Below are positions 2,963 to 20,792 of a stretch of DNA of 20,792 bases, in pieces. The stretch comes from a virus. The stretch covers positions 1 to 20,792 of the IMG/VR virus record IMGVR_UViG_3300006870_002740; one strand, given 5' to 3'. Each line of letters starts with the position of its first letter. Position 1 is the first letter of the stretch. Made by a program: the position numbers and the translations under genes. A model generated the notes under the pieces. It was not told the origin of the DNA. It saw nothing but the letters and a program-made list of their open reading frames with translations, and ran no database searches.

Positions 2963-3252
2963 TAAATATTTTCTTCCTGTTCAGTCAGAACGGTAACATC
3001 ACTAGTGGGATATGCAACACAGAGAAGTGTAAATCCTTGCTCTAGTTGTTCATCATCAAGAAAAGTTTGGTCACTATTATCTACAGAACCAGAGATAACT
3101 TTACCAGCACAGGCAGAACAAGCACCAGCACGGCAGGAAGAAGGAAGGTCTACACCTGCTTCTTCAGCAGCATCAAGGATGTACTGATCATCTTCACATT
3201 GAATAACACTTTCGGTGCCATCAGGTGTACGAAGAGTAATATTAAAATCCAT
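2962..3252 (-). CDS. petF: Plant-type [2Fe-2S] ferredoxin
   Basis: A 96-residue ferredoxin with all four cluster ligands in canonical spacing: Cys 40, 45, 48 and 78, inside [17 protein letters not shown] and FTLLCVAYP. The length matches cyanobacterial photosynthetic ferredoxin. It carries electrons from photosystem I to soluble enzymes; phage copies are thought to support bilin reductases. That fits this window, which also encodes the ferredoxin-dependent enzyme PcyA. The ATG overlaps the stop of the 28-residue gene by one base, and its own stop overlaps the thioredoxin-like start, placing it in the centre of a coupled operon behind a sigma-70 promoter. Confidence 0.95.
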
Positions 3253-3347: not shown

Positions 3348-3551
3348 TCAAAAGATACCGAAGAAGAACTTACCATTAATGGCATATGCAACGAATCCCA
3401 TAATGAGACCCATCATAGCCCAGCGTCCATTATACATCTCCTTCTGTTGCCAGGGAGAGGAAAGACCCTTCTTATTGTAGTTTTCAACTACCATTTGAGG
3501 TTCGACAGCCCACATATTTTGTTGACCGTGCTCGTTAGTTGTAACAGTCAT
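3348..3551 (-). CDS. hli: High-light-inducible protein (67 aa)
   Basis: A 67-residue protein with a polar N-terminus and the Hli signature in the second half: KEMYNGRWAMMGLIMGF, where the Glu, Asn and Arg are the expected chlorophyll-binding residues, followed by AYAINGKFFFGIF. One transmembrane helix in the thylakoid. It is the first gene of the photosynthesis/redox operon, with a consensus sigma-70 promoter ending 28 bases upstream of the ATG at 3551, so it should be expressed early by host RNA polymerase. No Shine-Dalgarno sequence is visible. It differs clearly from the shorter Hli at 2414-2533, so the two are not a recent duplication. Confidence 0.92.
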   Translation of the reverse strand: MTVTTNEHGQQNMWAVEPQMVVENYNKKGLSSPWQQKEMYNGRWAMMGLIMGFVAYAINGKFFFGIF

Positions 3552-4369: not shown

Positions 4370-4789
4370 TTACAGGATCCCAAAAGGAAGGTTGCTGAGT
4401 CCTTTAAGAGCAGATCCACCTGAAGTGGGTGGTCTCATTGGCAAGTTTGCTTTCTCTCTCTTTTCAGCTTTAAGTTCTAGCTCATAGATTCTTTCTTCCA
4501 TAACTTCAATAGAAGCATGTAGATTTGTTAGATACTCAATCAAGTCTTCCTTATTTTCTACAACTTGTTTAATATCTTCTCTAAGTTCTTTTTCCTTTTT
4601 CTCAACATCAAGTTGATCTGGATCTAAAGCTCCACTTTTTGCCATGTAGTAGTCGGCAATCTCTTGACTATTATCAAGATCAATACCTTCTAACTTGGGC
4701 GAAACTTCTTCATTTTCTTGTTCTGGATATTCATCCTCAGCATATTTAATACTGTGGATTACTTCAGTGCGTCTTGGTTCTTCTGTCAT
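4370..4789 (-). CDS. Acidic coiled-coil protein, function unknown
   Basis: A 139-residue protein. The first 60 residues are acidic (EYPEQENEEVSPKLEGIDLD); residues about 60-112 form a long charged helix with heptad-like spacing (DVEKKEKELREDIKQVVENK and on through EERIYELELKAEKREK), typical of a coiled coil; the tail is Pro/Gly-rich (LPMRPPTSGGSALKG) and ends LPFGIL. No signal peptide or membrane segment. It is the last gene of the 11-gene cluster; its ATG overlaps the PcyA stop (TGATG). It could be a scaffold or oligomerisation protein. Family not recognised. Confidence 0.7.
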   Translation of the reverse strand: MTEEPRRTEVIHSIKYAEDEYPEQENEEVSPKLEGIDLDNSQEIADYYMAKSGALDPDQLDVEKKEKELREDIKQVVENKEDLIEYLTNLHASIEVMEERIYELELKAEKREKANLPMRPPTSGGSALKGLSNLPFGIL

Positions 4790-5493
4790 CAGATCTCTGG
4801 GTAATCAAACAACATTTCTTTGATGTATTTATCGGCAAACTCTTCACCAAAAATACTCCTCAATACAGCTCTGGTCTTAGTATTTTGCCTCTGCTTATCA
4901 CAATAATACTTATGACCTTCGTAGTTTTCTTTAATATTTTCTGAAATAGGTTTAGTATTATATGCAATAGCACAATGATAGTTTAAATATGTGAATGCAG
5001 TATTAATAAACTTCTGATATTCATCCTCGTTTGGACTCACAAAAACGCAGTACTCAGAAAATACATCTCCCCAGTCAGGCATCTTTTTATCTTTTTCAAA
5101 CTCTGTATCGAGGATGTTTAAGATTTCATATTGCTGTGGCAAAGACCTGTCTGGTCTAATAGAGCTAATATCTACGATTGCTGCACCAACTGCTTTTTCT
5201 GATGCAACAATATCTGCACCATAAATGGGAATATCATATTGATATCTTGGGTACATATTAGTGTGAAGAATATCAAGACCCGATTTCATTTGAGCGACTT
5301 CCAAATGAATCTTTCTAAACTTTTCAGTCTCCCACACATAGTTTTCAACATAAACTTCTTCTTCGTCACCAGAAGACATCTCAATGAGTTTAAACTCATC
5401 AGCAATCTCTACTTCTTGAAGATCAAAATTCTCTTGCCAACTATCCAGAATAGAATCTGCTAGTCCTTGAATAAGTGGATGTAAGTCTCTCAT
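4789..5493 (-). CDS. pcyA: Phycocyanobilin:ferredoxin oxidoreductase
   Basis: A 234-residue ferredoxin-dependent bilin reductase. PcyA reduces biliverdin IXa by four electrons to phycocyanobilin, the chromophore of phycobiliproteins. Family hallmarks are clear: FRKIHLEVAQ with Glu 65, LDILHTNMYPRYQYDIPIYG with His 77, GADIVA with Asp 94, then MPDWGDVFSEYCVFVSP and YYCDKQRQNTKTR. Glu 65, His 77 and Asp 94 match the catalytic Glu76, His88 and Asp105 of Synechocystis PcyA with a constant offset of 11. The sequence follows PcyA, not the phage enzyme PebS. Electrons may come from the phage ferredoxin at 2962-3252. It sits in the glycan cluster with an ATGA overlap to the SNase-like gene, an unexpected neighbourhood. 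Confidence 0.93.
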   Translation of the reverse strand: MRDLHPLIQGLADSILDSWQENFDLQEVEIADEFKLIEMSSGDEEEVYVENYVWETEKFRKIHLEVAQMKSGLDILHTNMYPRYQYDIPIYGADIVASEKAVGAAIVDISSIRPDRSLPQQYEILNILDTEFEKDKKMPDWGDVFSEYCVFVSPNEDEYQKFINTAFTYLNYHCAIAYNTKPISENIKENYEGHKYYCDKQRQNTKTRAVLRSIFGEEFADKYIKEMLFDYPEI

Positions 5494-5915
5494 AATAGTC
5501 CCATATACTTTTCAGGTGGTGTACTGAGAACATAAAGTTCTCTTACTTTTGGAAGTTCTTCCTTAGTCAAATCAATACCATTGTCCCAAACATATCCCAT
5601 TAAAAACATTTGTTTATTTATCGAATGATCAAACTGTTCTGTGTAGATATTGCCCCACATATAGTCATCATGATAGTCAGTAACCTCTACATATAATGTT
5701 CCAACTAAATCATCTTTTATGAAATGACGAAGTTTATTCATAGCATTATATGCATAAAACTTTGTCTCTCGATCAGTAGACTTTGGGTCTGGAGAATCTA
5801 TTCCAGACAAATATATAACTTTCTTGAGATAGACTCCCATACCCAAATCTATAACTGCTTCAAATGAAGATCCATCAAATACCTCAAGAACTCTGCTTAT
5901 TTGGTATTTGTACAT
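5490..5915 (-). CDS. SNase-like protein with degenerate active site
   Basis: A 141-residue protein resembling the staphylococcal nuclease (OB-fold) family: VLEVFDGSSFEAVIDLGMGV aligns with the usual V-DGDT---IDLG pattern, then VIYLSGIDSPDP aligns with VRL-GID-PE, followed by a helix with AYNAMNKL and a late NKQMFLMGYVWDNG. Key catalytic positions look lost: DGDT is DGSS, the Arg before the GID motif is Tyr 35, the Glu is Asp 43, and the second Arg region (YGR in active enzymes) reads MWGN. So it may bind nucleic acid or protein without cutting. It lies between the fusion glycosyltransferase and pcyA and overlaps pcyA by ATGA. The SNase match is by eye only. Confidence 0.65.
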   Translation of the reverse strand: MYKYQISRVLEVFDGSSFEAVIDLGMGVYLKKVIYLSGIDSPDPKSTDRETKFYAYNAMNKLRHFIKDDLVGTLYVEVTDYHDDYMWGNIYTEQFDHSINKQMFLMGYVWDNGIDLTKEELPKVRELYVLSTPPEKYMGLL

Positions 5916-5923
5916 TTAAGTTT

Positions 5924-8905
5924 TTAATCGGTAAACATATACTTAACAACATTAACGGTTTTATCTGATACAGTCTTCATCTCATTAACTACTTCTGGAT
6001 CGATGAGATCAGGATGATACCACCAATCCTCAAAAGGACTGTTATCGTTTGGAGAAACATTAGCGACTAACATTTCATATCCCATTAACTTAAGATATCT
6101 CCTAGACTTATCACGATAAGATCTAGTCATATCAACATAATGATCATGTTCATATGTAATAATACTAAACCTATACTTCTCGAATGGCATTGCTAACAAG
6201 CATTCAAAAGTAGTCCTAGAGGGTTCAACATCTAGTTGAAGATAATCAAAATCAGTTCCTTTATCAAAGTTATCAAGCAACTTCAAATAATCGATAGTTG
6301 TTGCATCTTTGCAAATGATCTGATTTTTGCGCTCTCTTGAAAACTGAGCGCACAAATCAGGAAGAATCTCAATAGAAATACCATCCCATTCATATTTAGT
6401 CTCAAGAAGAGCAGTGTTATTTTGATAGAAAGGTTGCTGAGCACCTATTTCAAGATAAAGTCCATTAGTTTTACCTTGAGTTGCAGCAAGAATAAACATG
6501 TCCTGGAATGCTTGAGAATGATTTTTTTCAATCGTTTCTGATCCAGGGAACTTAAACCTCAATCTATCATGCTTTCTCTTCTGATACTTAATCACTTCAT
6601 CTGGGATATGTCCAGATCCCATTCTCATTAGATTGTTAGCAACCATGTCATAGTGGCGATCATCCATTTCATAGTTGTTCTTCATGTCTTGAAGAAGCGT
6701 TCTGGACTCATCACCTTTACCCCACCACCAAGCAGCAAGTTGCTTCTCAAAAAGAAGACCATACTTACCAGGATATTCCACATCAGTCTTCAATGGTTTA
6801 CAATCAAAATCACAGAAGTCTATTGCCCATTGAGAAAAGATATAGCAATCTTGCCACCATTGACGTTTCTCAGCAAACCTCGCTAGAAGGTAATACGCTT
6901 CAGGTCTTTTAGGACGAATACAAAGTGCTTGCTGAAGAAGTCCTTTTGCTGTTTGATCTCTCGTCCCTTGCCTGTCATAGGCATTGGAAGCATGGATCAA
7001 TGCTTCATAAGCAAGATCAAGATCATCTGTACGCTCAGCACATCTCAGGAAGAATGATAGTGCTGGAGCATTATGTCTGTAATGCTCGTACCACATACCA
7101 ATGTTAAAGTTCTTCACTGGGTTCTCAGTATCTAATGCATACTCTAAAAGTAAATCATTTAGATTTGCATTAGAAGCATCCGTCAATAATAGATCTTTCT
7201 TTACAACAAACTCAGAAGCAACTCTTAATTCTTCTTCTACTTGTTGCTCTTTAACTTCAAATGATTTTCCCATAAGTTCCTCAACTGTTCTATTAGAACC
7301 ATTATCTTTCCACCAGTTTATAACATAGTCGTGGGTATAATAGTGATTACGTTTCTGACCATATTTTACATCTCCATCTCCACCTTCAAAGGTAGAAGTA
7401 AAACGAACATCCTCTACAAACATTGAAATAGTATAAACTTTTCCAGCATTGGTATAAAGAATATTTTCAATAAGTGGTTGAACTCCATTATCTAGTTGAA
7501 GATGATATGTGCCGTCAACGATATAAGTATCTATAATATATTTTGCATAGTCTCTTTTAATAATATATGCAGTAACTGACCAATCATCCCAGTACCTGTC
7601 TCGGATTTTAATATCTTCAAAATCACCACGAATAGGAAGCATTTGAACACATCCCCAATCTTCTGGAAGTGCATCAACAAACTGTTTCCAAGTGAAGTTC
7701 CAGTAATCAACAGTATCAAGACTCAGATCATCTTCACAAAAGAAACCATACTCTTCCTCAGTTTCATAATACCAGTTTAAAATAGATTTTAAATGGGAAA
7801 CACAACACCCTTTCGTACCATCATTTAATGTGTGAACATACTCACCCGTAACTACATCATCACACTCTGCAAATCTTTTTGAGATCAATGGTCTAATGTT
7901 TGTAACTCCATGATCTTTGAGAGATTGATCAAGTTTCTTACGTCGTTCTACACTTTCTTCTAAACTAACATAAGAAACACTACTTAGTTCTAATAACTTT
8001 TTCATTTTTTCTTTTCTAGTAGCAACATAGTTTTGGTCATCAATGTTCATCACATCCCATTCATATATCCTATCAATATAATAGTAATCTAAATCAGAAA
8101 ATCTTTTCTCATTTTCTTCTACATTCATTTTTGCTAGAAGATATTCAAGATTCCAACGATCAGAGTCACTTGTATCAGGATTAGCAATCTTTCTTTTTAC
8201 ATTTTCAATATTGCTATCGTCAGAATCTTCACCATACCCCTCAAAGTTTTCGTATCTTTTCTTATCTGGATGTGGCAAATGAATAATATTATAGTTTTGA
8301 GTTAGTTTTTTGCACTCTAGACCCATCATAGTAAGTCTTTTAGTCATTTGATCATCTTCATAGGCATAATACTTACCCATGCGTTCATCATATCCACCAA
8401 CTTTCCAAAAGTTTTCTCTAGTCACAAAACATAGTCCAGTCAAATATTTAAACAAAGGACTATAGGTATGAGAATATTTCATCAACTCCCCAACATCCAT
8501 GTTATGGAAGTTAATCGCATATCCTTTTAGATTCCCATCCCAATACTCATGATTACACACATAATCATCTTGTCCACATAGGAAAGAGTTTTCATCAACT
8601 TTATAAAACTGAAAAAAATCAAAGTAAGGATTAATAATATAATCAGTATCTACTTTAATAATATAATCTCCAGTAGCAATACTGGCAGCAAGATTTAATG
8701 GTTGAGGTTGGTTAAAATACTTTTCATCATTGACTCGTATAACTTTTATTCTTTTATCCAGTTTTGTAAGATGACTGATTGGTTCATCAGAACTCCAATC
8801 AACCACAATAATCTCTTTTATTTCATAAAAAGATAACCAAGAGTTTAAAGAAACTCTCAGTGCATTATAGCGATTTTTACATGCACAAATTAAAGAAACA
8901 TTCAT
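5924..8905 (-). CDS. Four-part fusion: GT2, GT25, TPR, methyltransferase
   Basis: A 993-residue protein. Start ATG 8905 is chosen over a TTG 12 bases upstream because it forms an ATGA overlap with the previous stop. Domains in order: (1) GT2 glycosyltransferase, about 1-225, with CACKNR near the start, the metal-binding DTD at 86-88, and FWKVGGYDERMG...YEDDQMTKRL typical of the galactosyltransferase-type acceptor end; (2) GT25 domain, about 305-540, with VSYVSLEESVERRK, KGCCVSHLKSI and CEDD at 390-393, as in LPS and collagen galactosyltransferases; (3) helical TPR-like region, about 580-765; (4) FkbM-like methyltransferase, about 790-990, with GLYLEIGAQQPFY and YLQLDVEPS. A single chain could add two sugars and a methyl group. 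No signal peptide, so cytoplasmic. Confidence 0.85.
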   Translation of the reverse strand: MNVSLICACKNRYNALRVSLNSWLSFYEIKEIIVVDWSSDEPISHLTKLDKRIKVIRVNDEKYFNQPQPLNLAASIATGDYIIKVDTDYIINPYFDFFQFYKVDENSFLCGQDDYVCNHEYWDGNLKGYAINFHNMDVGELMKYSHTYSPLFKYLTGLCFVTRENFWKVGGYDERMGKYYAYEDDQMTKRLTMMGLECKKLTQNYNIIHLPHPDKKRYENFEGYGEDSDDSNIENVKRKIANPDTSDSDRWNLEYLLAKMNVEENEKRFSDLDYYYIDRIYEWDVMNIDDQNYVATRKEKMKKLLELSSVSYVSLEESVERRKKLDQSLKDHGVTNIRPLISKRFAECDDVVTGEYVHTLNDGTKGCCVSHLKSILNWYYETEEEYGFFCEDDLSLDTVDYWNFTWKQFVDALPEDWGCVQMLPIRGDFEDIKIRDRYWDDWSVTAYIIKRDYAKYIIDTYIVDGTYHLQLDNGVQPLIENILYTNAGKVYTISMFVEDVRFTSTFEGGDGDVKYGQKRNHYYTHDYVINWWKDNGSNRTVEELMGKSFEVKEQQVEEELRVASEFVVKKDLLLTDASNANLNDLLLEYALDTENPVKNFNIGMWYEHYRHNAPALSFFLRCAERTDDLDLAYEALIHASNAYDRQGTRDQTAKGLLQQALCIRPKRPEAYYLLARFAEKRQWWQDCYIFSQWAIDFCDFDCKPLKTDVEYPGKYGLLFEKQLAAWWWGKGDESRTLLQDMKNNYEMDDRHYDMVANNLMRMGSGHIPDEVIKYQKRKHDRLRFKFPGSETIEKNHSQAFQDMFILAATQGKTNGLYLEIGAQQPFYQNNTALLETKYEWDGISIEILPDLCAQFSRERKNQIICKDATTIDYLKLLDNFDKGTDFDYLQLDVEPSRTTFECLLAMPFEKYRFSIITYEHDHYVDMTRSYRDKSRRYLKLMGYEMLVANVSPNDNSPFEDWWYHPDLIDPEVVNEMKTVSDKTVNVVKYMFTD

Positions 8906-9738
8906 ATTGAAATCCAATGTGGTAATCTTAATCCATCAGAATCGATGTAATCGCAGTATGGCAAAAACCACTGCTTAGGTGAAATAGTTTTTTTACTTTT
9001 TGCTAACCAAGAACCCCACCAACTAAAAGAGCTGTTGGCAATAATATGATAATCACATTTAGACATTAAGCACATATCAACATAAGTGTTATTAGTTTTT
9101 ATTATAATAAACCTATCGTCTTGGAATATTTTTTGCTCTTTACACCACTCAGTATCGTCAGAAAATACTAGAACTGGTAAAGATTTGTCGAAAAAACTTA
9201 ATGCTTCCTCATAATAATTTATATCCAAACTATTGAGGACATGTGAGTTAACGTAGTCAGTCCTCCTTACATGCATCGAGATTACTTCAGTATCAGAAAA
9301 CATCTGAGAAAAATACTGTTCTGATATATCAAAATATTTTTTTCTGAATACAAACTTGTTTCTTAGTTTATCTTCGACATGAGAAAAATATTTATGATTT
9401 TGAAAAAAACCTAAGATACTTTTATTGTCATGATTAGTATTTAAAAACTCTTGATCAAAATGTGTTGATAAGAACTTTGCATTCTCTTCTTCTGAAGGAA
9501 TGTAAATAACATGCCCATCAACCACAACATTAGAATTTAGTTTATTTGGACAATGAAACTCTTTATTATAAAATGAAAATATTTTTGTGTCAATATCAAA
9601 GCATTCATAGAGTTGTATATTTTTTCTTGCTAAAGCATAATCTAAACCATATTTATCTGCTATGCCTACCAAGGCAGAGTATTGGAACATTTGATTTCCA
9701 AGTCTTCCAATAAATCCTATATGTGGAAATGTAATCAT
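8902..9738 (-). CDS. GT11 alpha-1,2-fucosyltransferase-like protein
   Basis: A 278-residue protein with the three GT11 motifs: GRLGNQMFQY at residues 11-20, the GDP-sugar-binding HVRRTDY at 156-162, and VFSDDTEW (191-198) followed by ANSSFSWWGSWL (234-245). GT11 enzymes transfer L-fucose from GDP-fucose, usually in alpha-1,2 linkage to galactose, in bacterial LPS and host-like glycans. The length is typical of bacterial members. Both ends overlap neighbouring genes by ATGA, so it is translated together with the GT2 gene and the large fusion. Donor and acceptor are inferred from the family; the phage window shows no GDP-fucose synthesis genes, so host GDP-fucose would be needed. Confidence 0.85.
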   Translation of the reverse strand: MITFPHIGFIGRLGNQMFQYSALVGIADKYGLDYALARKNIQLYECFDIDTKIFSFYNKEFHCPNKLNSNVVVDGHVIYIPSEEENAKFLSTHFDQEFLNTNHDNKSILGFFQNHKYFSHVEDKLRNKFVFRKKYFDISEQYFSQMFSDTEVISMHVRRTDYVNSHVLNSLDINYYEEALSFFDKSLPVLVFSDDTEWCKEQKIFQDDRFIIIKTNNTYVDMCLMSKCDYHIIANSSFSWWGSWLAKSKKTISPKQWFLPYCDYIDSDGLRLPHWISI

Positions 9739-10481
9739 AGTTCCAATATCTTATGCATATATTCTCTAGTCAGTTTCATATTATAATCCAACTCTTGTAC
9801 AAAATAGTTTCCTGGTCTTATTCTGTGATGATGATAAAACCCATCAACGATAGTGAATGTGTTTTTATATCTCAACCAACAATAAGAAAATAGTAAAACA
9901 TCAGCACCTTTTGGATCTTTAAACTTTTTACCTCCTCTCCTTAAACTTTGAACAGCACTTTTTTGAGAATCAATATAGCTATTTTTATTTACAATAAAGT
10001 TACCAGTATTTAATAACCAATCAATATAGTTAGTGCTTTCTTGAATATTTTTCTTTGCTACTGAAAGATCTATAAAGTTATCTCTATAGTCAAAGTTAAC
10101 AATATTTCCACCAGTCATATGAAGTTGTTTCACATGATAACACGTATCTTCTTTTGAAAAATCTATATTTCTTACGACATCCAATACTGATTTATCAAAC
10201 CAGTTATCGCTATCTATAAGATAAACCCAATCATTTTTACATTTTGATACGGCAAGATATTTATTAATATATGCTTTTTCATTTTTAGAACCACGATACA
10301 ACTTTATTTTATTAGTATCAATATTTGAAATCGTTTCAATAAGATTATAATATTCTACTTCAGAAGATTTATCATCGTGAATAATAATCTCAGATATAAT
10401 ATCGCTATCAATGGCAGGTTTAATACAATCCCAAAGATATTGAGAACTATTATAAGTTGGTATTGCTAATGATATTGTCAT
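9735..10481 (-). CDS. GT2 family glycosyltransferase
   Basis: A 248-residue GT-A fold glycosyltransferase. It opens with ISLAIPTYNSSQYLWDCI, has IIHDDKSS (34-40) and the metal-binding DSD in VYLIDSDNWFD (90-92), then a C-terminal acceptor region ending in REYMHKILEL. The ATG at 10481, one base after the upstream stop, is preferred over an in-frame TTG 9 bases earlier. There is no membrane segment, so it is soluble. Substrate cannot be read from sequence. Given its position between methyltransferases and the fucosyltransferase, it most likely adds one sugar of the glycan built by this cluster. Confidence 0.85.
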   Translation of the reverse strand: MTISLAIPTYNSSQYLWDCIKPAIDSDIISEIIIHDDKSSEVEYYNLIETISNIDTNKIKLYRGSKNEKAYINKYLAVSKCKNDWVYLIDSDNWFDKSVLDVVRNIDFSKEDTCYHVKQLHMTGGNIVNFDYRDNFIDLSVAKKNIQESTNYIDWLLNTGNFIVNKNSYIDSQKSAVQSLRRGGKKFKDPKGADVLLFSYCWLRYKNTFTIVDGFYHHHRIRPGNYFVQELDYNMKLTREYMHKILEL

Positions 10482-10482
10482 T

Positions 10483-11136
10483 TTAAACAAAGATTGTGTT
10501 TATATGATCACGATATACTTCAGTATATCCCACACTGTTTATGTATTCCCTCAACTTTCGACATGACGTTATCAGTTTTATATTATCTTGAAAATAAGAA
10601 TGATCATCAACAAGTTCAATGATCATCATCTTTGGTTTCCACAAATCAAGTCTAAAAGAGTTAAAAACATCTTCCTCTCTTCCTTCAACATCAACAACTA
10701 ACAAATCAAAGTTTTTAGGAACATCTGCCATTTGCATATAAGTATCCAATCTTACTTGTTTACATTCTGATTCTGTAAACTGAGGATAACCAAATAGATG
10801 CATTGAAGAAACAATATCAGCTTGTTCTTTATCTAAAGTTGAGACTATTCCAGAACAATAAACTGGTTTATATCCAACTTCTGTTCCAATAGCATAGTTA
10901 GATACTTTAATCTTTTTGTTATTTTTGTGCCTGTTAACACACTGATTAAAGTGCTCTTTTACAGGTTCAATATAAAACCCTTTCCATCCAGCATCAGCAA
11001 GACAAGATGTGTTGGATACAGATTCACCATCAAAAGCACCAACTTCTACAAAGGTTCCTTTTTTTGATCCAAAATATTTTAGATAAATCTGATCAAGATC
11101 AGGTATCTGACAAGTAGGAGATAAGTTATAGATCAT
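10483..11136 (-). CDS. FkbM-type SAM methyltransferase
   Basis: A 217-residue class I methyltransferase of the FkbM family. The SAM-binding motif is GTFVEVGAFDGESVSNT (27-43), followed by the acidic strand end FYIEPV (54-59) and the characteristic FDLLVVDVEGREEDVF (143-158). FkbM proteins O-methylate sugars or small molecules. The ATG at 11136 lies 11 bases inside the end of the previous methyltransferase gene; its stop is 1 base before the GT2 start. The three FkbM proteins of this cluster differ widely in sequence, so they probably methylate different positions rather than being recent copies. Confidence 0.85.
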   Translation of the reverse strand: MIYNLSPTCQIPDLDQIYLKYFGSKKGTFVEVGAFDGESVSNTSCLADAGWKGFYIEPVKEHFNQCVNRHKNNKKIKVSNYAIGTEVGYKPVYCSGIVSTLDKEQADIVSSMHLFGYPQFTESECKQVRLDTYMQMADVPKNFDLLVVDVEGREEDVFNSFRLDLWKPKMMIIELVDDHSYFQDNIKLITSCRKLREYINSVGYTEVYRDHINTIFV

Positions 11137-11782
11137 AATACTCTTTATGTGTCCACAGTTGTTCTCTACCAGAAGTTAAAACTTCTTCGTAACCACAATA
11201 TTTTAACGATCTTGCGACTTCATGTGCAGGGGGAATATTTTTATCTGGAAGTCCATACTCAAACTGAACATATTTAATATTATGTCTCATTAAAAGATCT
11301 TTAGCTCCTTGAATGATTTTTAACTCAGCACCTTCGGCATCTATTTTTAAATAATCAATATGATCTAAAGATAGTTCTTTACATAAAGTATCAAGTGTTT
11401 TGCATTCTACTTTTTCGGTATGTAATGATTCTCCCAAAAAATCATCTTGCATATAAAAACTTGATAAGACGTGACGATCTCCAGGATAAAAAATAAACTC
11501 ATGTCCATTTTTATTTGAAAGAGCAAGTTTTATTAACTCAACCCTTTCATCATCTCTCCATCTATTTTCAAACTCTTGCCAATGCAAAGGTTCTACAGCA
11601 TAGCATTTAGCGTCTTGAAATCTATCTAGAAATAATAAAGTAAAATCATCATTCCAGTTTTCAATCCATACTGCATTATCTTCTTCTACAATTTTATTAA
11701 TGTTACATCCAATATCAAATACAATAGGATTAGATGGAAGATATGGAACTGTTTCAATACATTTACGATAATCAAAACTCAT
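11126..11782 (-). CDS. FkbM-type SAM methyltransferase
   Basis: A 218-residue methyltransferase. Motifs: PIVFDIGCNI (19-28), CYAVEPL (60-66), and the FkbM hallmark HIDYLKIDAEGAELKIIQGA (141-160). Between motif I and the acidic strand it has an insert rich in Trp and Asp (WIENWNDDFTLLF) not seen in the other two family members. The C-terminus ends WTHKEYYDL. Likely O-methylation of a sugar hydroxyl. It starts one base after the stop of the upstream methyltransferase gene and overlaps the next by 11 bases. Confidence 0.85.
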   Translation of the reverse strand: MSFDYRKCIETVPYLPSNPIVFDIGCNINKIVEEDNAVWIENWNDDFTLLFLDRFQDAKCYAVEPLHWQEFENRWRDDERVELIKLALSNKNGHEFIFYPGDRHVLSSFYMQDDFLGESLHTEKVECKTLDTLCKELSLDHIDYLKIDAEGAELKIIQGAKDLLMRHNIKYVQFEYGLPDKNIPPAHEVARSLKYCGYEEVLTSGREQLWTHKEYYDL

Positions 11783-11783
11783 A

Positions 11784-12401
11784 TCACATAAATGCTCCTT
11801 TCTTTACATACCAAATGTGAACTGGACCATCAATACCAACAAGTTGATCTTCATCATAATGATTTTTTAGGAAGGAAGTAATATTTCCAAATGAAGGGTG
11901 ATTCCAATCATGACCCATGATATATCCACCATCACGAACTTTTGTTTCCCAATACTTTAGATCATTTTCAAGATCAAAATGATCGCCGTCAATAAAAATA
12001 AAATCTAAACTTTCATTCTTAAACTTCTTTGCTGCTGCTTCAGATGTCATACGAGCAATTTTTCCTCTAGTTCCATACGGCTTAAGCATAGCAACAACGT
12101 GCTGATATAAACCCTCAAAGGATACAAAGTCATTTTTTATATTTACATCACCAACATTCCACCTTTTTTCAGAATAAGTATCTACTCCCCAAAGTTTAGT
12201 CAGTTTTGTTTCTTCGAGAAGAAGTTTCATATTAGATCCAAAAGCAACTCCAATCTCAACACCTGTTGAAATATCATCACTTCTTTCATTAATAAAATCT
12301 TTTAACCATTGATGGGATTCATCCCAATACTGATGATACTTGTAAAGGTTTTCTAGATTAATATCTACTGTAGTAGTCGTAGTTGTTGCCATTGTAATCA
12401 T
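11784..12401 (-). CDS. Class I SAM methyltransferase (Methyltransf_24-like)
   Basis: A 205-residue methyltransferase of a type different from FkbM: VEIGVAFGSNMKLL (48-61) for SAM binding, LWGVDTY (70-76), LDFIFIDGDHFDLENDL (132-148) and GGYIMGHDWNHPSFG (158-172). The DGDH and HDW motifs are typical of Methyltransf_24 and cephalosporin-hydroxylase-like proteins that modify sugars. The N-terminus has a run of Thr (ATTTTTT). Two starts are possible: ATG 12401, which forms an ATGA overlap but has GGAG only 2 bases away, and ATG 12392 with GGAG 11 bases away; both keep the whole domain. Confidence 0.8.
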   Translation of the reverse strand: MITMATTTTTTVDINLENLYKYHQYWDESHQWLKDFINERSDDISTGVEIGVAFGSNMKLLLEETKLTKLWGVDTYSEKRWNVGDVNIKNDFVSFEGLYQHVVAMLKPYGTRGKIARMTSEAAAKKFKNESLDFIFIDGDHFDLENDLKYWETKVRDGGYIMGHDWNHPSFGNITSFLKNHYDEDQLVGIDGPVHIWYVKKGAFM

Positions 12402-13018
12402 TTCTCCTGTTTTGTATAAAGGGCATCACCCCAATCATGATCTTGCCACCAGTTAGTTTCAGTTCTTTCAAATGAATACTGTAACAAAAACTTATCGATG
12501 TCTTCTATATATGCGTTGTTCTCATATATCTCTGCACGATTAACTTCACAGTAAACATAATCAATATGATTTAAAGTGTTTTTAGCACCTTTTAGAACCT
12601 CAAGTTCATATCCCTGTACATCCATATTTAAAAAGTTATACTTTGTAAAGTTATAATCATCTAATAACTTTACTTCAATAGTTTCAGTTTCATTAAATGT
12701 AATGTCTGGATATAAATTGAGATGTTCTTTAGGTTTGAGAATAGAACTACTCTCACACATATTACTGCTTAGATACATATCAACTGTTTTATGTTCACTA
12801 CCTAAAGCAACTTGATACCCTAAAATATTTGCATCGTAGTTTGCTGCATGTTTAGCAACAATATCAAAGTTTCTTTCTACTGGTTCAAACAAGACAATAT
12901 TTTTAATTCCATTATTGATATATAAAGGAATCTCTTCTCCATGATGAGCCCCTACGTGAATAACTCCATTAATATTCATATCATACTTTGTAGTAATATT
13001 ATTAAATGTTAGAATCAT
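12398..13018 (-). CDS. FkbM-type SAM methyltransferase
   Basis: A 206-residue FkbM methyltransferase with NGVIHVGAHHGEEIPLY (17-33), IVLFEPVERNF (41-51), and YNFLNMDVQGYELEVLKGA (127-145). This HVGAHxGEE variant is common in viral and cyanobacterial glycan-modification clusters. The C-terminus contains RTETNWWQDHDWGDALY, which looks like a substrate-facing aromatic loop. ATGA overlaps join it to the GH130-like gene upstream and the Methyltransf_24-like gene downstream. Substrate unknown; sugar O-methylation is the likeliest reaction. Confidence 0.87.
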   Translation of the reverse strand: MILTFNNITTKYDMNINGVIHVGAHHGEEIPLYINNGIKNIVLFEPVERNFDIVAKHAANYDANILGYQVALGSEHKTVDMYLSSNMCESSSILKPKEHLNLYPDITFNETETIEVKLLDDYNFTKYNFLNMDVQGYELEVLKGAKNTLNHIDYVYCEVNRAEIYENNAYIEDIDKFLLQYSFERTETNWWQDHDWGDALYTKQEK

Positions 13019-14107: not shown

Positions 14108-14136
14108 ATTATATCAATATCTGATTACTATGTCAA
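14108..14136 (-). promoter_or_regulatory. Sigma-70 (early) promoter of the glycan/pcyA cluster
   Basis: A perfect TTGACA (14136-14131), a 17-base spacer and a perfect TATAAT (14113-14108) on the minus strand. The expected start is near 14101, giving a leader of about 70 bases. All 11 genes down to 4370 follow without a gap larger than 8 bases, so this promoter probably drives them all, early in infection. Confidence 0.87.
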
Positions 14137-14161: not shown

Positions 14162-14181
14162 AAGTGTCTAAATTAACACTT
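14162..14181 (-). terminator. Weak hairpin after the fibre gene
   Basis: A 6-base stem (AAGTGT 14162-14167 with ACACTT 14176-14181) with an 8-base loop overlaps the fibre stop codon. The downstream minus strand is T-rich (TTAATCTTATTTTC) but lacks an uninterrupted run. It may end the fibre transcript inefficiently. Confidence 0.35.
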
Positions 14182-17100
14182 TACTTATTTTCAAGATTAC
14201 TAACTCTATTCTCCAATACTTTTATGTAATTGTGGTCTTCAACAAGAGCATTAATTAGGAATGGAATTAATCCAGAATAATTTACAGTTTTATTATTTCC
14301 ATTATTATTAACTAGTTCTGGAATAATGTTTTCCAATTCTTGTGCTATAACACCATAACTTACATTTCCATTATCTTTCCAAGTAAATCTTATTGATGAA
14401 ATTTTTTCTAATTTGTCAATACTATTACTCAGATAACTGATATTTTCTTTTAACTGTATATCGGATGTAGAATTAAAATCAGTTGCTGACAGTTGACCAG
14501 TACTTGGATTGAATTGGAGTTTTGTTGAAGAAACATATTCTGTTGATACTGTCCCAGAAGTCTGGTTTACAAACGTAGGATATCTTGTGGCATTTGTTGT
14601 TGTGTCATTAGTAATTGAAATTTCAGTTCCCGATTTACCTTGAACACCCTGAGATGATTGTGTACCTTGAACGCCTTGAGTACCTTGGAGACCCTGGTTT
14701 CCTTGAACACCTTGATTACTTAAACCTTGGAGACCCTGATTACCTTGGAGACCTTGAGTACCTTGAGTTGCTTGTGTACCTTGAGTACCTTGGCGTCCTT
14801 GTAATCCCTGGTTACCCTGGTTACCTTGGTTACCCTGGTTACCTTGGCGGCCTTGTGTACCTTGAGTTGCTTGTGTACCTTGAGTACCTTGGTTACCTTG
14901 GTTACCTTGGTTACCTTGAGTTGCTTGTGTACCTTGGTTACCCTGAACGCCTTGGTTACTTCTACCTTGGTTACCTTGGTTACCTTGAGTTGCTTGTGTA
15001 CCTTGGTTACCCTGAACGCCTTGGTTACTTCTACCTTGGTTTCCTTGATTACCTTGATTACCTTGGCGTCCTTGGTTACCTTGAAGACCTTGGTTTCCTT
15101 GGTTTCCTTGGTTACCCTGAGTTCCTTGGTTACCCTGGTTACCCTGGCGTCCCTGACGACCCTGGTTTCCTTGGTTGCCCTGTAGACCTTGGTTTCCTTG
15201 ATTACCTTGATTACCTTGGCGTCCTTGGTTACCTTGAAGACCTTGGTTACCTTGATTACCTTGATTGCCTTGATTACCTTGATTACCTTGGCGTCCTTGG
15301 TTACCTTGAAGACCTTGGTTACCTTGATTACCTTGATTGCCTTGATTACCTTGGTTACCTTGGCGTCCTTGGTTACCTTGGAGACCTTGATTACCCTGAT
15401 TACCTTGGTTACCCTGGTTACCTTGATTACCTTGGTTACCCTGGTTGCCTTGGTTGCCTTGAAGACCTTGGACACCAGATCTTGTAAATGCTAATGTTAC
15501 TTCTTCACTTACTGATGGCGAAGCACCTGCAAGATAGTTGACTGGAATGGTATAGTAAGAACCATTATCAGTTATATTTCCATCAACTTCAAAAATAACA
15601 ACAGTATTATCTGAAGATAGAGCTGAGATTATGTAAATATAACCCCTGTTTAATCCACCAGTTAATGTAGTATCATCCCAACTTGCAATCCATCCCGATT
15701 GATTATTGCTTAAAGCGTCAATATCATTAACTGTAATAGAAGTTACAGAAGATGCTGTGGCATTATTAAATCTAATCTGACCAGAAGATGGTGCTCCAGT
15801 TCCTCCATATGCATAAGGAACTCCACCACGGTTACCGATGTTACCCTGGTTACCCTGGTTACCTTGGTTACCTTGGTTACCTTGGTTACCTTGGTTACCT
15901 TGAAGACCTTGGTTACCTTGATTACCTTGATTTCCTTGGTTTCCTTGGTTACCCTGGTTACCCTGTAGACCTTGGTTTCCTTGGTTGCCCTGATTACCTT
16001 GATTACCCTGGTTTCCTTGGAGACCTTGATTACCCTGGTTACCTTGGAGACCTTGATTACCTTGGTTTCCTTGGAGACCTTGATTACCTTGGTTTCCTTG
16101 ATTGCCTTGGAGACCTTGGTTTCCTTGATTGCCTTGGAGACCTTGATTACCTTGGTTACCTTGGTTACCTTGAAGACCTTGGACACCAGATCTTGTGAAT
16201 GCTAAAGTAACTTCTTCACTTACTGATGGTGTAGATCCACTAATGGGATTAACTGGGATAGTATAATATGTACCATTATTTGTTGCAGAACCATCAACTT
16301 CAAAAATATTAACGGTATTATCGGATGAAAGTGCCGAAATAACGTAAATATAACCTCTATTTAATCCACCAGTTAACGCTGTATCATCCCAACTTGCAAT
16401 CCAGTTTGATTGATCATTACTTAACTGATCAATATCATGGACTTGAATCGCAGTGATGCTAGCAAATGTAGAGTTATTATATCTGATCTGTCCACTAGAA
16501 GGAGCTCCAGTTCCACTATAAGTATAAGGAACTCCACCACGGTTACCAATATTACCTTGGTTACCTTGGAGACCCTGGTTTCCTTGGTTACCTTGGTTTC
16601 CTTGATTACCTTGATTTCCTTGGTTACCCTGTAGACCTTGGTTACCTTGGTTGCCCTGATTTCCTTGGTTTCCTTGGTTGCCCTGATTTCCTTGATTACC
16701 TTGAAGACCCTGAAGTCCTTGATTACCTTGATTACCTTGGTTACCCTGATTACCTTGGTTACCTTGATTACCTTGAAGACCCTGAAGTCCTTGGTTACCT
16801 TGGTTACCCTGTAGACCTTGATTGCCCTGGTTGCCTTGGTTTCCTTGATTACCTTGATTTCCTTGGTTACCTTGGAGACCTTGGTTACCTTGATTACCCT
16901 GGTTGCCTTGGTTTCCTTGATTGCCTTGGTTTCCTTGGTTTCCTTGGAGACCCTGAACACCCTGAACACCAGATCTTGTAAATGTTAAAGTAACTTCTTC
17001 ACTTGCAGTAGGAGTACTACCAGATAAGTAGTTGACAGGAATAGAATAATATGAACCGTTATCAGTTATATTTCCATCAACTTCAAGGATTGTTACAGTA

Positions 17101-20100
17101 TTGTCAGAAGATAGTGCAGAAATAATATAAATGTAACCTCTATTCAGACCACCATTTAATGTAGTATCATCCCAACTTGTAATCCAGTTTGATTGATTGT
17201 TACCAAGATCATCAATATCGTTAACATAAACTACTGTAGGATTGGATCCATTGTTGAATCTAATCTCACCAGATGTTCCCGATGATGTTCCCGTACCAGC
17301 ATAGGTATAAGGAACTCCACCACGGTTACCAATGTTTCCTTGTAGACCTTGGTTGCCCTGATTACCTTGGTTACCCTGGTTGCCCTGGTTTCCTTGATTA
17401 CCTTGGCGTCCTTGGTTACCCTGTAGACCTTGGTTGCCCTGATTACCTTGGTTACCTTGATTACCTTGGCGTCCTTGGTTACCTTGGCGTCCTTGGTTAC
17501 CCTGTAGACCTTGGTTGCCCTGGTTGCCCTGGTTACCTTGATTGCCCTGGTTGCCTTGATTACCTTGGCGTCCTTGGTTGCCCTGTAGACCTTGGTTTCC
17601 TTGGTTGCCCTGGTTTCCTTGGTTTCCTTGGTTGCCCTGGTTTCCTTGGTTACCTTGCAGACCCTGGACACCTTGAACACCAGATCTTGTGAACGCTAAG
17701 GTAAGTTCTGTTCCATTTGAGGGAACAGTACCACTAATAGGATTGACTGGGATGGTCCAATATGTTCCATTATTTGTCGCAGTACCATCAACTTCAAAGA
17801 TATTAACCGTATTTGCATCAGATGAAGCGGAGATTAGATAGATATAACCCCTATTCAATCCGCCAGTTAATGCTGTATCATCCCAACTTGAAATCCAGTT
17901 AGTTTGGTCATTACTTAACTGGTCAATATCATGAATTCTAAGTTGAGTAATAGAACTAAAAGTTGAACTGTTATAAGTGACTGTACCTGATCCAGGAACT
18001 CCTCCAGTCGATCCTTGGAAGTCATAAGGAACTCCACCACGGTTACCAATGTTTCCTTGCAGACCCTGAACACCTTGGTTACCTTGGTTTCCTTGGTTAC
18101 CCTGGTTTCCTTGGTTACCCTGGTTTCCTTGGTTACCTTGAAGACCTTGGTTACCAACTGGTTGAATAACAACAAATACTCTGTCACCATCGGTAAATGT
18201 ACCAGTCTGTGCAATCTTTGTGACAGTAAAGTATCTCCAAGTACCTTGATCATTTCTATAAGATTCAACGGAGAAGACAATATAATCTAAGTTATTTGCT
18301 TCTCTTTGAACTGTAATAACCGATCTTGGGCTGTTATTTGAATAGTCAATAGAAGAAAGAATACCCTGCACATCAGTAGTTTCAATATCAATCTCACTGA
18401 TTCTAAACTGTGTAAAGTTTGCTGTTGGTGCAGCGTTAAATCCAATATGACCATTTCCAGGATTAGTATTAGCCGTTGACGAGTTATATTCAAATACAGA
18501 ACCTAGGGATCTTGCTGCAGAAATACCTTGTAAACCTTGGAGACCTTGGTTACCCTGATTACCCTGGTTGCCTTGGTTACCCTGGTTTCCTTGGTTACCC
18601 TGATTCCCTTGTAAACCCTGGTTGCCCTGGTTACCTTGGTTTCCTTGGTTACCCTGGTTTCCTTGGTTACCCTGATTCCCTTGTAAACCCTGGTTGCCCT
18701 GGTTACCTTGGTTGCCTTGATTACCTTGGCGTCCTTGGTTGCCCTGTAGACCTTGGTTTCCTTGGTTGCCCTGGTTGCCTTGATTTCCTTGGTTGCCTTG
18801 GTTACCCTGATTACCTTGATTGCCTTGTAGACCTTGTATTCCAGAAGCAACAAAGTTTACTGAAAGTTCTTCATTATTTGCTGGTAATGAACCAGATACA
18901 TGACTGACTGGAATCTTATAATATCCAGAAGCAACTGTTACTGCACCAGTAATCTGGAATACATCAACAGTTGTTTCATTACTATCAGATGATGTTAGAT
19001 ATAAGTAACCTCTAACAAGACCTGTGTTGACCTGAGTATCATCCCAAGTGTTATACCATCCTGTCTGATTGTTTCCTAAACCATCTAAGTTATCAATATA
19101 AATTTCGGTTACTGAACCTATAGTAGAATCATTATATCTTAAAGTTCCATTTCCAGGATCAGCATCTCCAGTTGCTGTAGAGAAGACATATGGAGTTCCA
19201 CCGCGACTACCATAATTACCCTGCAATCCTTGGAGACCCTGATTACCTTGGTTACCTTGGAGACCTTGATTACCTTGGTTTCCTTGGAGACCCTGGTTGC
19301 CTTGATTGCCTTGTAATCCCTGATTACCCTGGTTACCTTGAAGACCCTGATTACCTTGGTTTCCTTGGAGACCCTGATTACCTTGATTTCCTTGGAGACC
19401 CTGATTACCTTGATTTCCTTGGAGACCTTGATTACCCTGGTTTCCTTGGAGACCCTGGTTACCTTGATTACCTTGGAGACCTTGGTTACCTTGATTTCCT
19501 TGGAGACCTTGGTTACCTTGGTTACCCTGAAGACCTTGATTACCTTGGTTTCCTTGGAGACCTTGATTGCCTTGTCGTCCTTGAAGACCTTGAAGACCTT
19601 GAAGACCAGCAAGACCAAAGCTTATATAAACATCTTCATTATTTGAAAATCCCGAACCAGAACTAACAGATTCTGTAAGATCTAATATAGACCAACCATC
19701 AATACCAGAAGATTGTATAGATACTCCACCTATTCTAAAAATGTAAAAATTATTGGAATTCAATTGAGATTGAATTTTAATAAATCCTTTATTTCCGGGA
19801 GAACCATATTGGTTTACGAAAGCATAAAAATCTGATAAATTAGAACCATTTTGATCTCTATGATCCAAATAAAGTTCAGTACTGTTTTCTATAGTACTAT
19901 CATCAAATCTTATAAAACCTTGTCCAGGATCTGATGATGTTGTGCTATTGCTATAATTATATTCAAAAGTATCTCCAGAACTCACACCATCAGGACCTTG
20001 AAGTCCTTGAAGTCCTTGTAGTCCTTGAATTCCGGATTTGGAAAAATTGAATACTAATTTTTCAGAATTTAATGGAACAGATCCCGATAAATATGAAACT

Positions 20101-20792
20101 GGTATCTTGTAATACCCACTAGAGACTGTAACTTCACCAACAATTTTGAAAGTGTTTATCGTAGTATTATTAGAATCCGCAGATGAAATTACAAGTTGCC
20201 CCCTTTCGAGAGAAGAATTTACAATAGTATCATCCCAACTATCATACCAACCAGTTTGAGTATTACCCAAATTGTCGATGTTATCGATATAAATTTCATC
20301 TACTAAATCAATTGTGGAGTTATTATATCTAAAAGTTCCGTTTCCAGGATCGGCATCACCAGTAGTTGTCGAGAAGATATAAGGAACTCCACCACGATTA
20401 CCAATATTTCCCTGTAGACCTTGTAATCCTTGATTACCTTGAAGACCTTGATTGCCTTGGTTGCCCTGTAATCCCTGATTACCCTGGTTACCTTGAAGAC
20501 CCTGATTTCCTTGGTTGCCTTGAAGACCCTGATTTCCTTGGTTGCCTTGAAGACCCTGATTGCCTTGATTACCTTGAAGACCCTGATTGCCTTGATTACC
20601 TTGAAGACCTTGATTTCCTTGATTGCCCTGAAGACCTTGGTTGCCTTGATTACCTTGGAGACCCTGGTTACCTTGATTACCTTGTAATCCTTGATTACCT
20701 TGGTTTCCTTGGAGACCCTGGTTGCCTTGATTACCTTGGAGACCTTGATTACCCTGGTTTCCTTGGAGACCTTGATTACCCTGGTTTCCTTG
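14181..20792 (-). CDS. Giant collagen-like tail fibre protein with S74 chaperone, 5' end outside window
   Basis: At least 2203 residues, open at the window edge, so the N-terminus and start are not visible. Collagen-like (Gly-X-Gln)n blocks, X mostly Asn or Leu and sometimes Arg, Val or Thr, lie at about 20792-20411, 19609-19221, 18840-18526, 18153-18055, 17680-17339, 16966-16555, 16188-15842 and 15474-14635. Between them are eight globular modules of about 120 residues; six share GGVPY or GGTPY, SWDDT-like and SGVQG/SGIQG motifs, while two (about 19978-19610 and 18525-18154) are different. The C-terminus (from about 14634) is a Peptidase S74 intramolecular chaperone: TSDIQLKENI has the Ser and the Lys five residues later that perform self-cleavage, then YGVIAQELENIIPEL and a final coiled coil. 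Likely a trimeric host-binding fibre. Confidence 0.88.
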   Translation of the reverse strand, partial: QGNQGNQGLQGNQGNQGLQGNQGNQGLQGNQGNQGLQGNQGNQGLQGNQGNQGLQGNQGNQGLQGNQGNQGLQGNQGNQGLQGNQGNQGLQGNQGNQGLQGNQGNQGLQGNQGNQGLQGNQGLQGLQGNIGNRGGVPYIFSTTTGDADPGNGTFRYNNSTIDLVDEIYIDNIDNLGNTQTGWYDSWDDTIVNSSLERGQLVISSADSNNTTINTFKIVGEVTVSSGYYKIPVSYLSGSVPLNSEKLVFNFSKSGIQGLQGLQGLQGPDGVSSGDTFEYNYSNSTTSSDPGQGFIRFDDSTIENSTELYLDHRDQNGSNLSDFYAFVNQYGSPGNKGFIKIQSQLNSNNFYIFRIGGVSIQSSGIDGWSILDLTESVSSGSGFSNNEDVYISFGLAGLQGLQGLQGRQGNQGLQGNQGNQGLQGNQGNQGLQGNQGNQGLQGNQGNQGLQGNQGNQGLQGNQGNQGLQGNQGNQGLQGNQGNQGLQGNQGNQGLQGNQGNQGLQGNQGNQGLQGNQGNQGLQGLQGNYGSRGGTPYVFSTATGDADPGNGTLRYNDSTIGSVTEIYIDNLDGLGNNQTGWYNTWDDTQVNTGLVRGYLYLTSSDSNETTVDVFQITGAVTVASGYYKIPVSHVSGSLPANNEELSVNFVASGIQGLQGNQGNQGNQGNQGNQGNQGNQGNQGLQGNQGRQGNQGNQGNQGNQGLQGNQGNQGNQGNQGNQGNQGNQGLQGNQGNQGNQGNQGNQGNQGNQGLQGLQGISAARSLGSVFEYNSSTANTNPGNGHIGFNAAPTANFTQFRISEIDIETTDVQGILSSIDYSNNSPRSVITVQREANNLDYIVFSVESYRNDQGTWRYFTVTKIAQTGTFTDGDRVFVVIQPVGNQGLQGNQGNQGNQGNQGNQGNQGNQGVQGLQGNIGNRGGVPYDFQGSTGGVPGSGTVTYNSSTFSSITQLRIHDIDQLSNDQTNWISSWDDTALTGGLNRGYIYLISASSDANTVNIFEVDGTATNNGTYWTIPVNPISGTVPSNGTELTLAFTRSGVQGVQGLQGNQGNQGNQGNQGNQGNQGNQGLQGNQGRQGNQGNQGNQGNQGNQGNQGLQGNQGRQGNQGRQGNQGNQGNQGNQGLQGNQGRQGNQGNQGNQGNQGNQGNQGLQGNIGNRGGVPYTYAGTGTSSGTSGEIRFNNGSNPTVVYVNDIDDLGNNQSNWITSWDDTTLNGGLNRGYIYIISALSSDNTVTILEVDGNITDNGSYYSIPVNYLSGSTPTASEEVTLTFTRSGVQGVQGLQGNQGNQGNQGNQGNQGNQGNQGLQGNQGNQGNQGNQGNQGNQGLQGNQGNQGLQGLQGNQGNQGNQGNQGNQGNQGLQGLQGNQGNQGNQGNQGNQGNQGNQGLQGNQGNQGNQGNQGNQGNQGLQGNQGNIGNRGGVPYTYSGTGAPSSGQIRYNNSTFASITAIQVHDIDQLSNDQSNWIASWDDTALTGGLNRGYIYVISALSSDNTVNIFEVDGSATNNGTYYTIPVNPISGSTPSVSEEVTLAFTRSGVQGLQGNQGNQGNQGLQGNQGNQGLQGNQGNQGNQGLQGNQGNQGLQGNQGNQGLQGNQGNQGNQGNQGNQGLQGNQGNQGNQGNQGNQGNQGLQGNQGNQGNQGNQGNQGNQGNIGNRGGVPYAYGGTGAPSSGQIRFNNATASSVTSITVNDIDALSNNQSGWIASWDDTTLTGGLNRGYIYIISALSSDNTVVIFEVDGNITDNGSYYTIPVNYLAGASPSVSEEVTLAFTRSGVQGLQGNQGNQGNQGNQGNQGNQGNQGNQGLQGNQGRQGNQGNQGNQGNQGNQGLQGNQGRQGNQGNQGNQGNQGNQGLQGNQGRQGNQGNQGNQGLQGNQGNQGRQGRQGNQGNQGTQGNQGNQGNQGLQGNQGRQGNQGNQGNQGRSNQGVQGNQGTQATQGNQGNQGRSNQGVQGNQGTQATQGNQGNQGNQGTQGTQATQGTQGRQGNQGNQGNQGNQGLQGRQGTQGTQATQGTQGLQGNQGLQGLSNQGVQGNQGLQGTQGVQGTQSSQGVQGKSGTEISITNDTTTNATRYPTFVNQTSGTVSTEYVSSTKLQFNPSTGQLSATDFNSTSDIQLKENISYLSNSIDKLEKISSIRFTWKDNGNVSYGVIAQELENIIPELVNNNGNNKTVNYSGLIPFLINALVEDHNYIKVLENRVSNLENK
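14635..20792 (-). repeat. Nine-base collagen-coding tandem repeats in eight blocks
   Basis: The collagen blocks are built from 9-base units (Gly-X-Gln), varied at third codon positions (GGT/GGA/GGG/GGC, AAT/AAC, CAA/CAG). On the plus strand they read as endless variants of ttaccttgg and gaccttgg. Longer segments recur as well, for example in 15213-15370, so the array can expand or shrink by recombination. Globular modules interrupt it as described for the fibre gene. Confidence 0.9.
14898..15039 (-). repeat. Tandem duplication of 69 bases within the fibre gene
   Basis: Two adjacent near-identical copies with a period of 69 bases (marker string gagttgcttg at 14918 and 14987). Each encodes 23 residues including GRSNQGVQGNQGTQATQG. 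As 23 is not a multiple of three, each copy shifts the Gly-X-Y register of the collagen block, with GRSNQG and TQATQ as interruptions. Confidence 0.8.

Follow-up and report, generated by a model that had tools for sequence, protein, structure and literature searches.

A TPR-containing glycosyltransferase-methyltransferase chain and its GH130/GT108-like partner as candidate modifiers of a collagen-like phage fibre

What does a viral protein that joins two glycosyltransferases to a methyltransferase act upon, when its gene belongs to an operon that immediately follows the gene of a giant collagen-like fibre? The question is raised by a 20,792-nucleotide stretch of DNA from a cyanobacterial virus (IMG/VR record IMGVR_UViG_3300006870_002740, positions 1 to 20,792; hereafter the window), which encodes a 993-residue fusion of a GT2 domain, a GT25 domain, four tetratricopeptide repeats (TPRs) and a FkbM-like methyltransferase. 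An earlier note made from the letters alone had described two glycosyltransferases, helical repeats and a FkbM-like methyltransferase in this chain, a description borne out by the open reading frame, profile searches and a four-domain model, and had suggested that the chain decorates the fibre or, alternatively, the host lipopolysaccharide (LPS). Our results support the fibre over LPS, because the fusion family and a partner gene co-occur with collagen-like repeats and have apparently been gained several times independently. We therefore favour, with modest confidence, the explanation that a modular cytoplasmic multienzyme, which docks through its TPRs and builds and methylates glycans, modifies the shaft of the phage's own collagen-like fibre together with a GH130/GT108-like partner. 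A literature search on cyanophages and FkbM, and on glycosylation of collagen-like tail fibres, returned nothing direct.

The gene pair and its association with collagen-like repeats

The fusion as such was considered as the conserved unit and rejected, as the conserved pair consists of a TPR chain and the GH130-like gene that opens the operon. With this partner gene as bait and at least 3 kb of downstream sequence required, a TPR chain was found downstream of it in all loci (74/74, and 42/42 after removal of near-copies to obtain non-redundant counts). The gap between the two genes in the 42 non-redundant loci has a median of 12 bp and reaches 7 kb at most, and a TPR module upstream of the partner gene was seen in none of 32 loci. 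All 72 non-redundant chains contain the TPR module, which is membership by definition of the search, and the catalytic modules vary around it: GT25 is present in 44 chains, a methyltransferase in 39 and GT2 in 27, while other chains bear GT17, WavE-like, radical SAM/SPASM, extra FkbM or DUF6445 domains. Since GT2, GT25, FkbM and oxygenase modules swap around the TPRs, the window fusion represents a single variant within a modular system. Treating the fusion as the unit, as in the earlier note, was thus incomplete: the selected unit is the GH130-like enzyme plus a TPR chain, of which the fusion is one among many architectures.

This pair is strongly associated with collagen-like repeats. In pair-bearing contigs selected irrespective of their collagen content, PF01391 exceeded its threshold in 19/20 large contigs, and likewise in both pair-bearing isolates, the Synechococcus phages S-SCSM2R (host WH7803) and DSL-LC02 (21/22 together), versus 3/22 cyanophage isolates devoid of the pair (Fisher p = 4e-8, contigs and isolates). 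The co-occurrence proposed earlier as a check on the fibre idea thus holds for the fusion and for its larger family. On a gp23 tree, the five rows with both pair and collagen need five changes, at least four of them forced by well-supported branches, suggesting that pair and collagen were gained independently at least four times. Near-sisters on this tree differ accordingly, DSL-LC02 and G034 carrying the pair and DSL-LC03 and SynMITS9220M01, respectively, lacking both the pair and a collagen match. Nine gp23-related contigs taken as within-lineage controls (collagen in 1/9, pair in 0/9) are side evidence only because the tail region may lie outside such fragments; one of them, G050, has a gp23 100% identical to that of the pair-bearing G032 and may be the same phage cut short. 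In the reverse direction, 7 of 30 phage contigs picked solely by DNA encoding Gly-X-Gln (GXQ) carry the partner gene, in 7/16 contigs with less than 4% proline in their repeats and in 0/14 at or above this value (p = 0.007, for a split set after data inspection). In DSL-LC02 the pair is flanked by a collagen-like gene on one side and tail-fibre genes on the other. Proximity of the pair to collagen runs was rejected as main evidence, being too weak.

The association concerns a particular kind of repeat. The fibre of the window, of which at least 2203 residues are encoded before the sequence ends and which reaches ∼4,400 residues (a frame of 4420 codons) in a longer contig of a related locus (L002), has 355 Gly-X-Y triplets with a single proline and, as had been pointed out, no lysine. 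These repeats consist almost only of glycine, asparagine, leucine and glutamine, with ∼1% serine and threonine. In every pair-bearing locus examined they are of the Gly-X-Gln type, with glutamine at 49-100% of Y positions and proline at ∼4% or less; lysine is close to zero in nearly all of them (range 0-5%, the maximum in L081). The repeats of the pair-lacking ACG-2014f and P-SSM2 are rich in threonine or proline. In two other clades (B and C), whose fusions are 94% and 84% identical to that of the window, the fibre tips show no similarity to the S74-type tip of the window clade, one being followed by a tail-collar type gene, and the N/L-rich GXQ shaft is kept. The cassette therefore seems to track the shaft and not the receptor-binding tip, since tips swap while the shaft type stays.

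Domains of the fusion and fold of its partner

The open reading frame of the fusion starts with an ATG at 8905, an upstream TTG adding four more residues, and 48 IMG/VR loci hold homologues with ∼50-100% identity, many of them full length. The AlphaFold model (mean pLDDT 87, pTM 0.40) resolves four confident domains but leaves their relative positions uncertain, and residues 548-570 form a disordered linker. A search of the PDB with the single sequence gave no match, whereas family-profile and fold searches did. The best overall fold matches are two-glycosyltransferase polymerases, heparosan synthase 2 and the K4 chondroitin polymerase, and further matches include Mimivirus R655, which aligns with the GT25 domain, and TPR proteins such as O-GlcNAc transferase (OGT), SPINDLY (SPY) and GmaR.

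The N-terminal domain belongs to GT2 in the CAZy classification, with a GT-A fold and a DxD motif. PF00535 (5e-9) and Glyco_transf_7C (PF02709, 9e-6) both exceed their Pfam cut-offs, and D86 and D88 are kept in 19/19 relatives, E183 and D184 in 19/20. For the second domain, the Pfam GT25 score in the window chain alone (0.029) is below cut-off. Nevertheless, GT25 membership, on which the fibre proposal had been made to depend, is secure because residues 298-537 match phrog_2835 ('glucosyltransferase' in PHROGs) at 5e-39, the family profile matches the solved GT25 enzyme 8xlz at 3e-5, PF01755 is found in 23/45 relatives (best 7e-11) and the signature GCxxSH...EDD is invariant, EDD and SH occurring in all 31 chains that have this stretch. 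By homology and by its EDD/DxD and GCxxSH motifs, the domain is accordingly placed in the CAZy family GT25.

The helical repeats are modelled as four TPRs, i.e. tandem helix-turn-helix units forming a superhelix, with fold matches to OGT, SPY and designed TPRs, and Pfam TPR models match in relatives. The C-terminal domain has the secondary structure of a class-I methyltransferase in the model. Its FkbM match in the window chain (PF05050, 0.001) reaches 19.6 bits versus a cut-off of 22.7; among aligned relatives PF05050 goes up to 2e-19, a value that may stem from the extra FkbM domains that several of these chains hold.

The partner gave no Pfam match, and its profile found no sequence match in the PDB. 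Its model (pLDDT 84.5, pTM 0.87, residues 65-85 poorly modelled) yields 221 PDB fold matches at E <= 0.001, led by GH130/GT108 members, namely GH130 beta-1,2-mannobiose phosphorylases and GT108-type GDP-Man mannosyltransferases/phosphorylases of Leishmania, with E-values down to 9e-10 and TM-scores of just 0.46-0.59 by query length for the leading matches. It is thus predicted to adopt the five-bladed propeller of GH130/GT108, and a near-invariant GLEDxR motif at residues 125-130 resembles the motif of this family. Homologues in isolates DSL-LC02 and S-SCSM2R are annotated 'beta-mannosyltransferase' and 'MGP protein'. Mannosyltransferase and phosphorylase are the candidate activities suggested by the fold. 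A scan with the partner alone recovered at least 594 relatives in viral contigs. Bacterial genomes returned just five distant matches (42-46%), all located on short contigs that belong to bins or to metagenome-assembled genomes, and they therefore do not show a cellular home for the module.

Several relatives deserve mention in their own right. DUF6445, which we take to be 2-oxoglutarate (2OG)-oxygenase-like, is found at the C-terminus of four TPR chains (L048:7720-10245, L050:19980-21845, L121:3818-6286 and L125:1614-3467), possibly a hydroxylase joined to glycan machinery. In L105:10962-13796, two methyltransferase domains followed by radical SAM and SPASM domains are fused in the TPR chain. 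A very large viral contig (L404, 413,021 bases) holds two GH130-like homologues as well as GXQ repeats.

Table 1. Coordinates of the fibre, the operon and the domains of the fusion within the window
Feature	Coordinates	Strand	Remarks
Giant collagen-like fibre, (Gly-X-Gln)n shaft, S74-type C-terminus	14181..20792	(-)	probable substrate; cut by window end
Extended -10 sigma-70 promoter	14108..14136	(-)	TTGACA-17-TATAAT, 12/12; between fibre and operon
GH130/GT108-fold protein, 338 aa	13015..14031	(-)	operon's first gene; assigned by fold model; obligate partner of TPR chain
FkbM methyltransferase	12398..13018	(-)	PF05050 7e-18; fused to chain N-terminus in some relatives
Methyltransf_24 methyltransferase	11784..12401	(-)	PF13578 4e-12
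FkbM methyltransferase	11126..11782	(-)	PF05050 1e-18
FkbM methyltransferase	10483..11136	(-)	PF05050 3e-17
GT2 glycosyltransferase	9735..10490	(-)	PF00535 7e-13
GT11 (fucosyltransferase-type) glycosyltransferase	8902..9738	(-)	PF01531 9e-24
Fusion gene GT2 - GT25 - TPR - FkbM-like methyltransferase	5924..8905	(-)	993 aa; open reading frame and translation, domain searches, AlphaFold model
GT2 domain (GT-A), ~residues 1-240	8186..8905	(-)	DxD = D86/D88; E183-D184 of Glyco_transf_7C motif
GT25 domain, ~residues 304-545	7271..7996	(-)	GCxxSH 366-371, EDD 391-393
Four-TPR domain, ~residues 582-762	6620..7162	(-)	only module common to every relative of the chain
FkbM-like S-adenosylmethionine methyltransferase domain, ~residues 772-990	5936..6592	(-)	motifs EIGAxxP, DYLQLD conserved

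Operon, acceptor and rival explanations

Eight genes run head to tail on the (-) strand from 14031 to 5924, mostly overlapping by a few bases (Table 1). The position of the fusion gene in a cluster directly downstream of the fibre, claimed from the letters, is correct and can be refined, since it is the eighth and last gene and lies ∼5.3 kb from the fibre. The early promoter attributed to this cluster is also real: three sigma-70 sites with 12/12 matches are present in the window versus 0.03 expected, and a site of at least 10/12 precedes the operon's first gene in 14/18 relatives. Occurrences of the late-promoter motif TATAAATA are at chance level. The two perfect sites besides the operon promoter are located at 9593-9565 (-), within the GT11 gene and ∼0.7 kb upstream of the fusion start, and at 3608-3579 (-).

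We envisage the following sequence of events. Host RNA polymerase would transcribe the operon from its sigma-70 promoter, so that the enzymes might be present before or while fibre chains are made. The TPR superhelix would then dock the acceptor, whose class is probably constant because no module other than the TPR is retained throughout the relatives. Sugars may then be added stepwise from activated donors by the fused GT2 and GT25 domains, by the stand-alone GT2 and GT11 enzymes and by the GH130/GT108-like partner, with activities predicted from family membership and conserved motifs, and the FkbM-like domain and the separate methyltransferases would O-methylate these sugars. The Pro-poor Gly-X-Gln shaft is the most likely acceptor, rather than the fibre tip, and the glycan may stiffen the triple helix in place of proline or shield the fibre.

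As for the residue that bears the glycan, the idea of fibre decoration fares differently in its two parts: the association is upheld (21/22 vs 3/22, with several gains), and the analogy with collagen galactosyltransferases fails at the acceptor. Action of GT25 on fibre lysines was rejected on the absence of lysine from all triplets, which excludes a hydroxylysine acceptor in these repeats, and the enzyme is not of the COLGALT type acting on (hydroxy)lysine of Gly-X-Lys. Serine and threonine of the repeats were likewise rejected for the window phage, being so rare, and are possible acceptors in relatives. In the window phage, asparagine and glutamine are the only abundant side chains of the repeats able to carry sugars. 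A repeat-linked glycan must consequently sit on one of them, or else the sugars are carried by Ser/Thr-rich interdomains of the fibre. A bolder version, which we put forward as a tentative and on balance improbable one, is that of a dedicated phage collagen-modification system, distinct from that of animals with its lysine and proline targets, in which the partner and the TPR multienzyme put methylated glycans on glutamine (Y) or asparagine (X) of the Pro-poor repeats. With the same reserve, these amide-linked methylated glycans would permit assembly of a giant triple-helical fibre in the absence of proline, hydroxyproline and lysine.

The strongest competing explanation, which we regard as rather unlikely while taking it seriously, is that early in infection the operon puts methylated sugars on the LPS or capsule of the host, so that competing phages or self-adsorption are blocked; operon and adhesin would travel together since the receptor is the concern of both. 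This is the usual reading of glycosyltransferase clusters in cyanophages and pelagiphages (PMC7824862, PMC7029224). The promoter is indeed early-type and conserved, LPS enzymes are found among the members of GT25 and GT11, and some relatives contain WavE-like or GT17 domains. However, modification of the host surface predicts linkage to the receptor-binding tip, yet tips are exchanged while cassette and shaft type persist, and an association with Pro-poor Gly-X-Gln shafts is not among its predictions. Moreover, the operon encodes no flippase, polymerase, ligase or membrane protein and does not have the composition of a gtr-type O-antigen/LPS cluster, strongly hydrophobic segments were sought in all cassette proteins and found in none, and the chain has a protein-docking TPR module. 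The early promoter does not decide the acceptor, as enzymes may be made ahead of their substrate.

It is improbable that another virion protein (a different tail fibre, the baseplate or the capsid) is decorated, with the collagen-like fibre serving only as an indicator of that module. The genes upstream belong most often to tail-fibre and baseplate families, and mycobacteriophages glycosylate capsid and tail-tube proteins (PMC12363180), but the association with a single shaft type, repeated in several independent gains, is particular to collagen-like repeats. Least probable of all is hitch-hiking, in which glycan genes and fibres co-vary in a recombination-prone tail region with no shared substrate: modest proximity and highly variable cassette content suit it, and the invariant two-gene core (42/42) and co-gain in separate lineages do not.

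Beyond the proline threshold chosen after inspection, a number of observations weigh against modification of the fibre shaft. The contrast among isolates alone is thin (2/2 vs 3/22, p = 0.036), the contigs of the co-occurrence test are incomplete, and one pair-bearing contig (G041, 64 kb, with a distant gp23) has no collagen match. Conversely, the pair is missing from S-CRM01 although its repeats are of the GXQ type. The pair lies only modestly close to collagen runs (combined p = 0.053 for seven contigs, 0.010 when two isolates are included), and a single hypervariable block may be carrying both fibre and cassette. The sigma-70 promoter suggests expression early, ahead of fibre synthesis. Finally, glutamine and threonine are thought to stabilise bacterial collagen-like helices via hydration (PMC8968730). 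Glutamine at Y may thus simply hydrate a Pro-poor helix without need for an enzyme, so that GXQ need not mean modification.

Just downstream of the operon lies a phycocyanobilin:ferredoxin oxidoreductase of the PcyA type (4789-5493 (-), NCBIfam PRK02816, 249.8 bits vs a cut-off of 206). Between it and the fusion, a small SNase-like nuclease (5490-5915 (-), PF00565 at 0.008, below cut-off; phrog_452) is conserved in close relatives. Thioredoxin-like, ferredoxin and high-light-inducible proteins (2672-2962, 2962-3252 and 3348-3551, all (-)) are typical cyanophage host-metabolism genes. Upstream neighbours match 'ferrochelatase' PHROGs in 14/123 cases (e.g. L071:7935-8591, L027:7026-7589); some of these names look misassigned because Pfam clearly identifies the L071 gene as a 2OG-Fe(II) oxygenase.

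Significance and comparison with known systems

Cyanophage glycosyltransferase clusters are routinely filed under 'LPS modification' without test, and a widespread two-gene module that tracks one kind of fibre offers a specific, testable alternative. If the fibre is indeed the substrate, systems for modifying collagen would extend beyond animals and giant viruses; the construction of giant phage fibres from repeats with almost no proline would be accounted for, and tools for glycosylated collagen-like materials would become available. If it is not, the module would still be a convenient entry point for studying the remodelling of cyanobacterial surfaces by phages.

Among known systems, A064R of the chlorovirus PBCV-1 unites two glycosyltransferases and a methyltransferase in one chain, whose three activities extend the glycan on the capsid protein of the virus itself by two rhamnoses and a 2-O-methyl group (PMC9614988). 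The phage fusion is similarly a single viral chain, of two glycosyltransferase domains and a predicted methyltransferase. In contrast to it, A064R has unrelated glycosyltransferase families, no TPR and no GH130-like partner, and it acts on capsid N-glycans of a eukaryotic virus. Mimivirus L230, a GT25 enzyme with a lysyl hydroxylase, is a viral glycosyltransferase that modifies collagen-like proteins and is related to human GLT25D1 (PMC9614988). Like L230 with its hydroxylase, some phage TPR chains carry an oxygenase-like domain (DUF6445). However, L230 needs hydroxylysine, whereas the window repeats have no lysine and the window chain has no oxygenase.

A TPR module joined to a catalytic domain, as in the phage chain, is also found in OGT, SPINDLY, GmaR (where the module is TPR-like) and collagen prolyl 4-hydroxylase (C-P4H). 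The TPRs of OGT and C-P4H bind the protein substrate, and the peptide-binding domain of C-P4H, of TPR fold, binds collagen-type peptides with tyrosines of its groove (PMC12433258). These modifiers differ in belonging to other catalytic families, while several transferases are combined in the phage chain. Two GT-A domains per chain are shared with the heparosan synthase PmHS2 and the K4 chondroitin polymerase which, unlike the phage fusion, are polysaccharide polymerases without TPR or methyltransferase. Finally, the sugars of BclA from Bacillus spores are of the rhamnose type, including methylated sugars, and its repeats are of the Gly-Pro-Thr type with threonine acceptors, whereas the window repeats are almost devoid of serine, threonine and proline. 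BclA nonetheless exemplifies a bacterial collagen-like fibre that bears sugars (PMC8968730).

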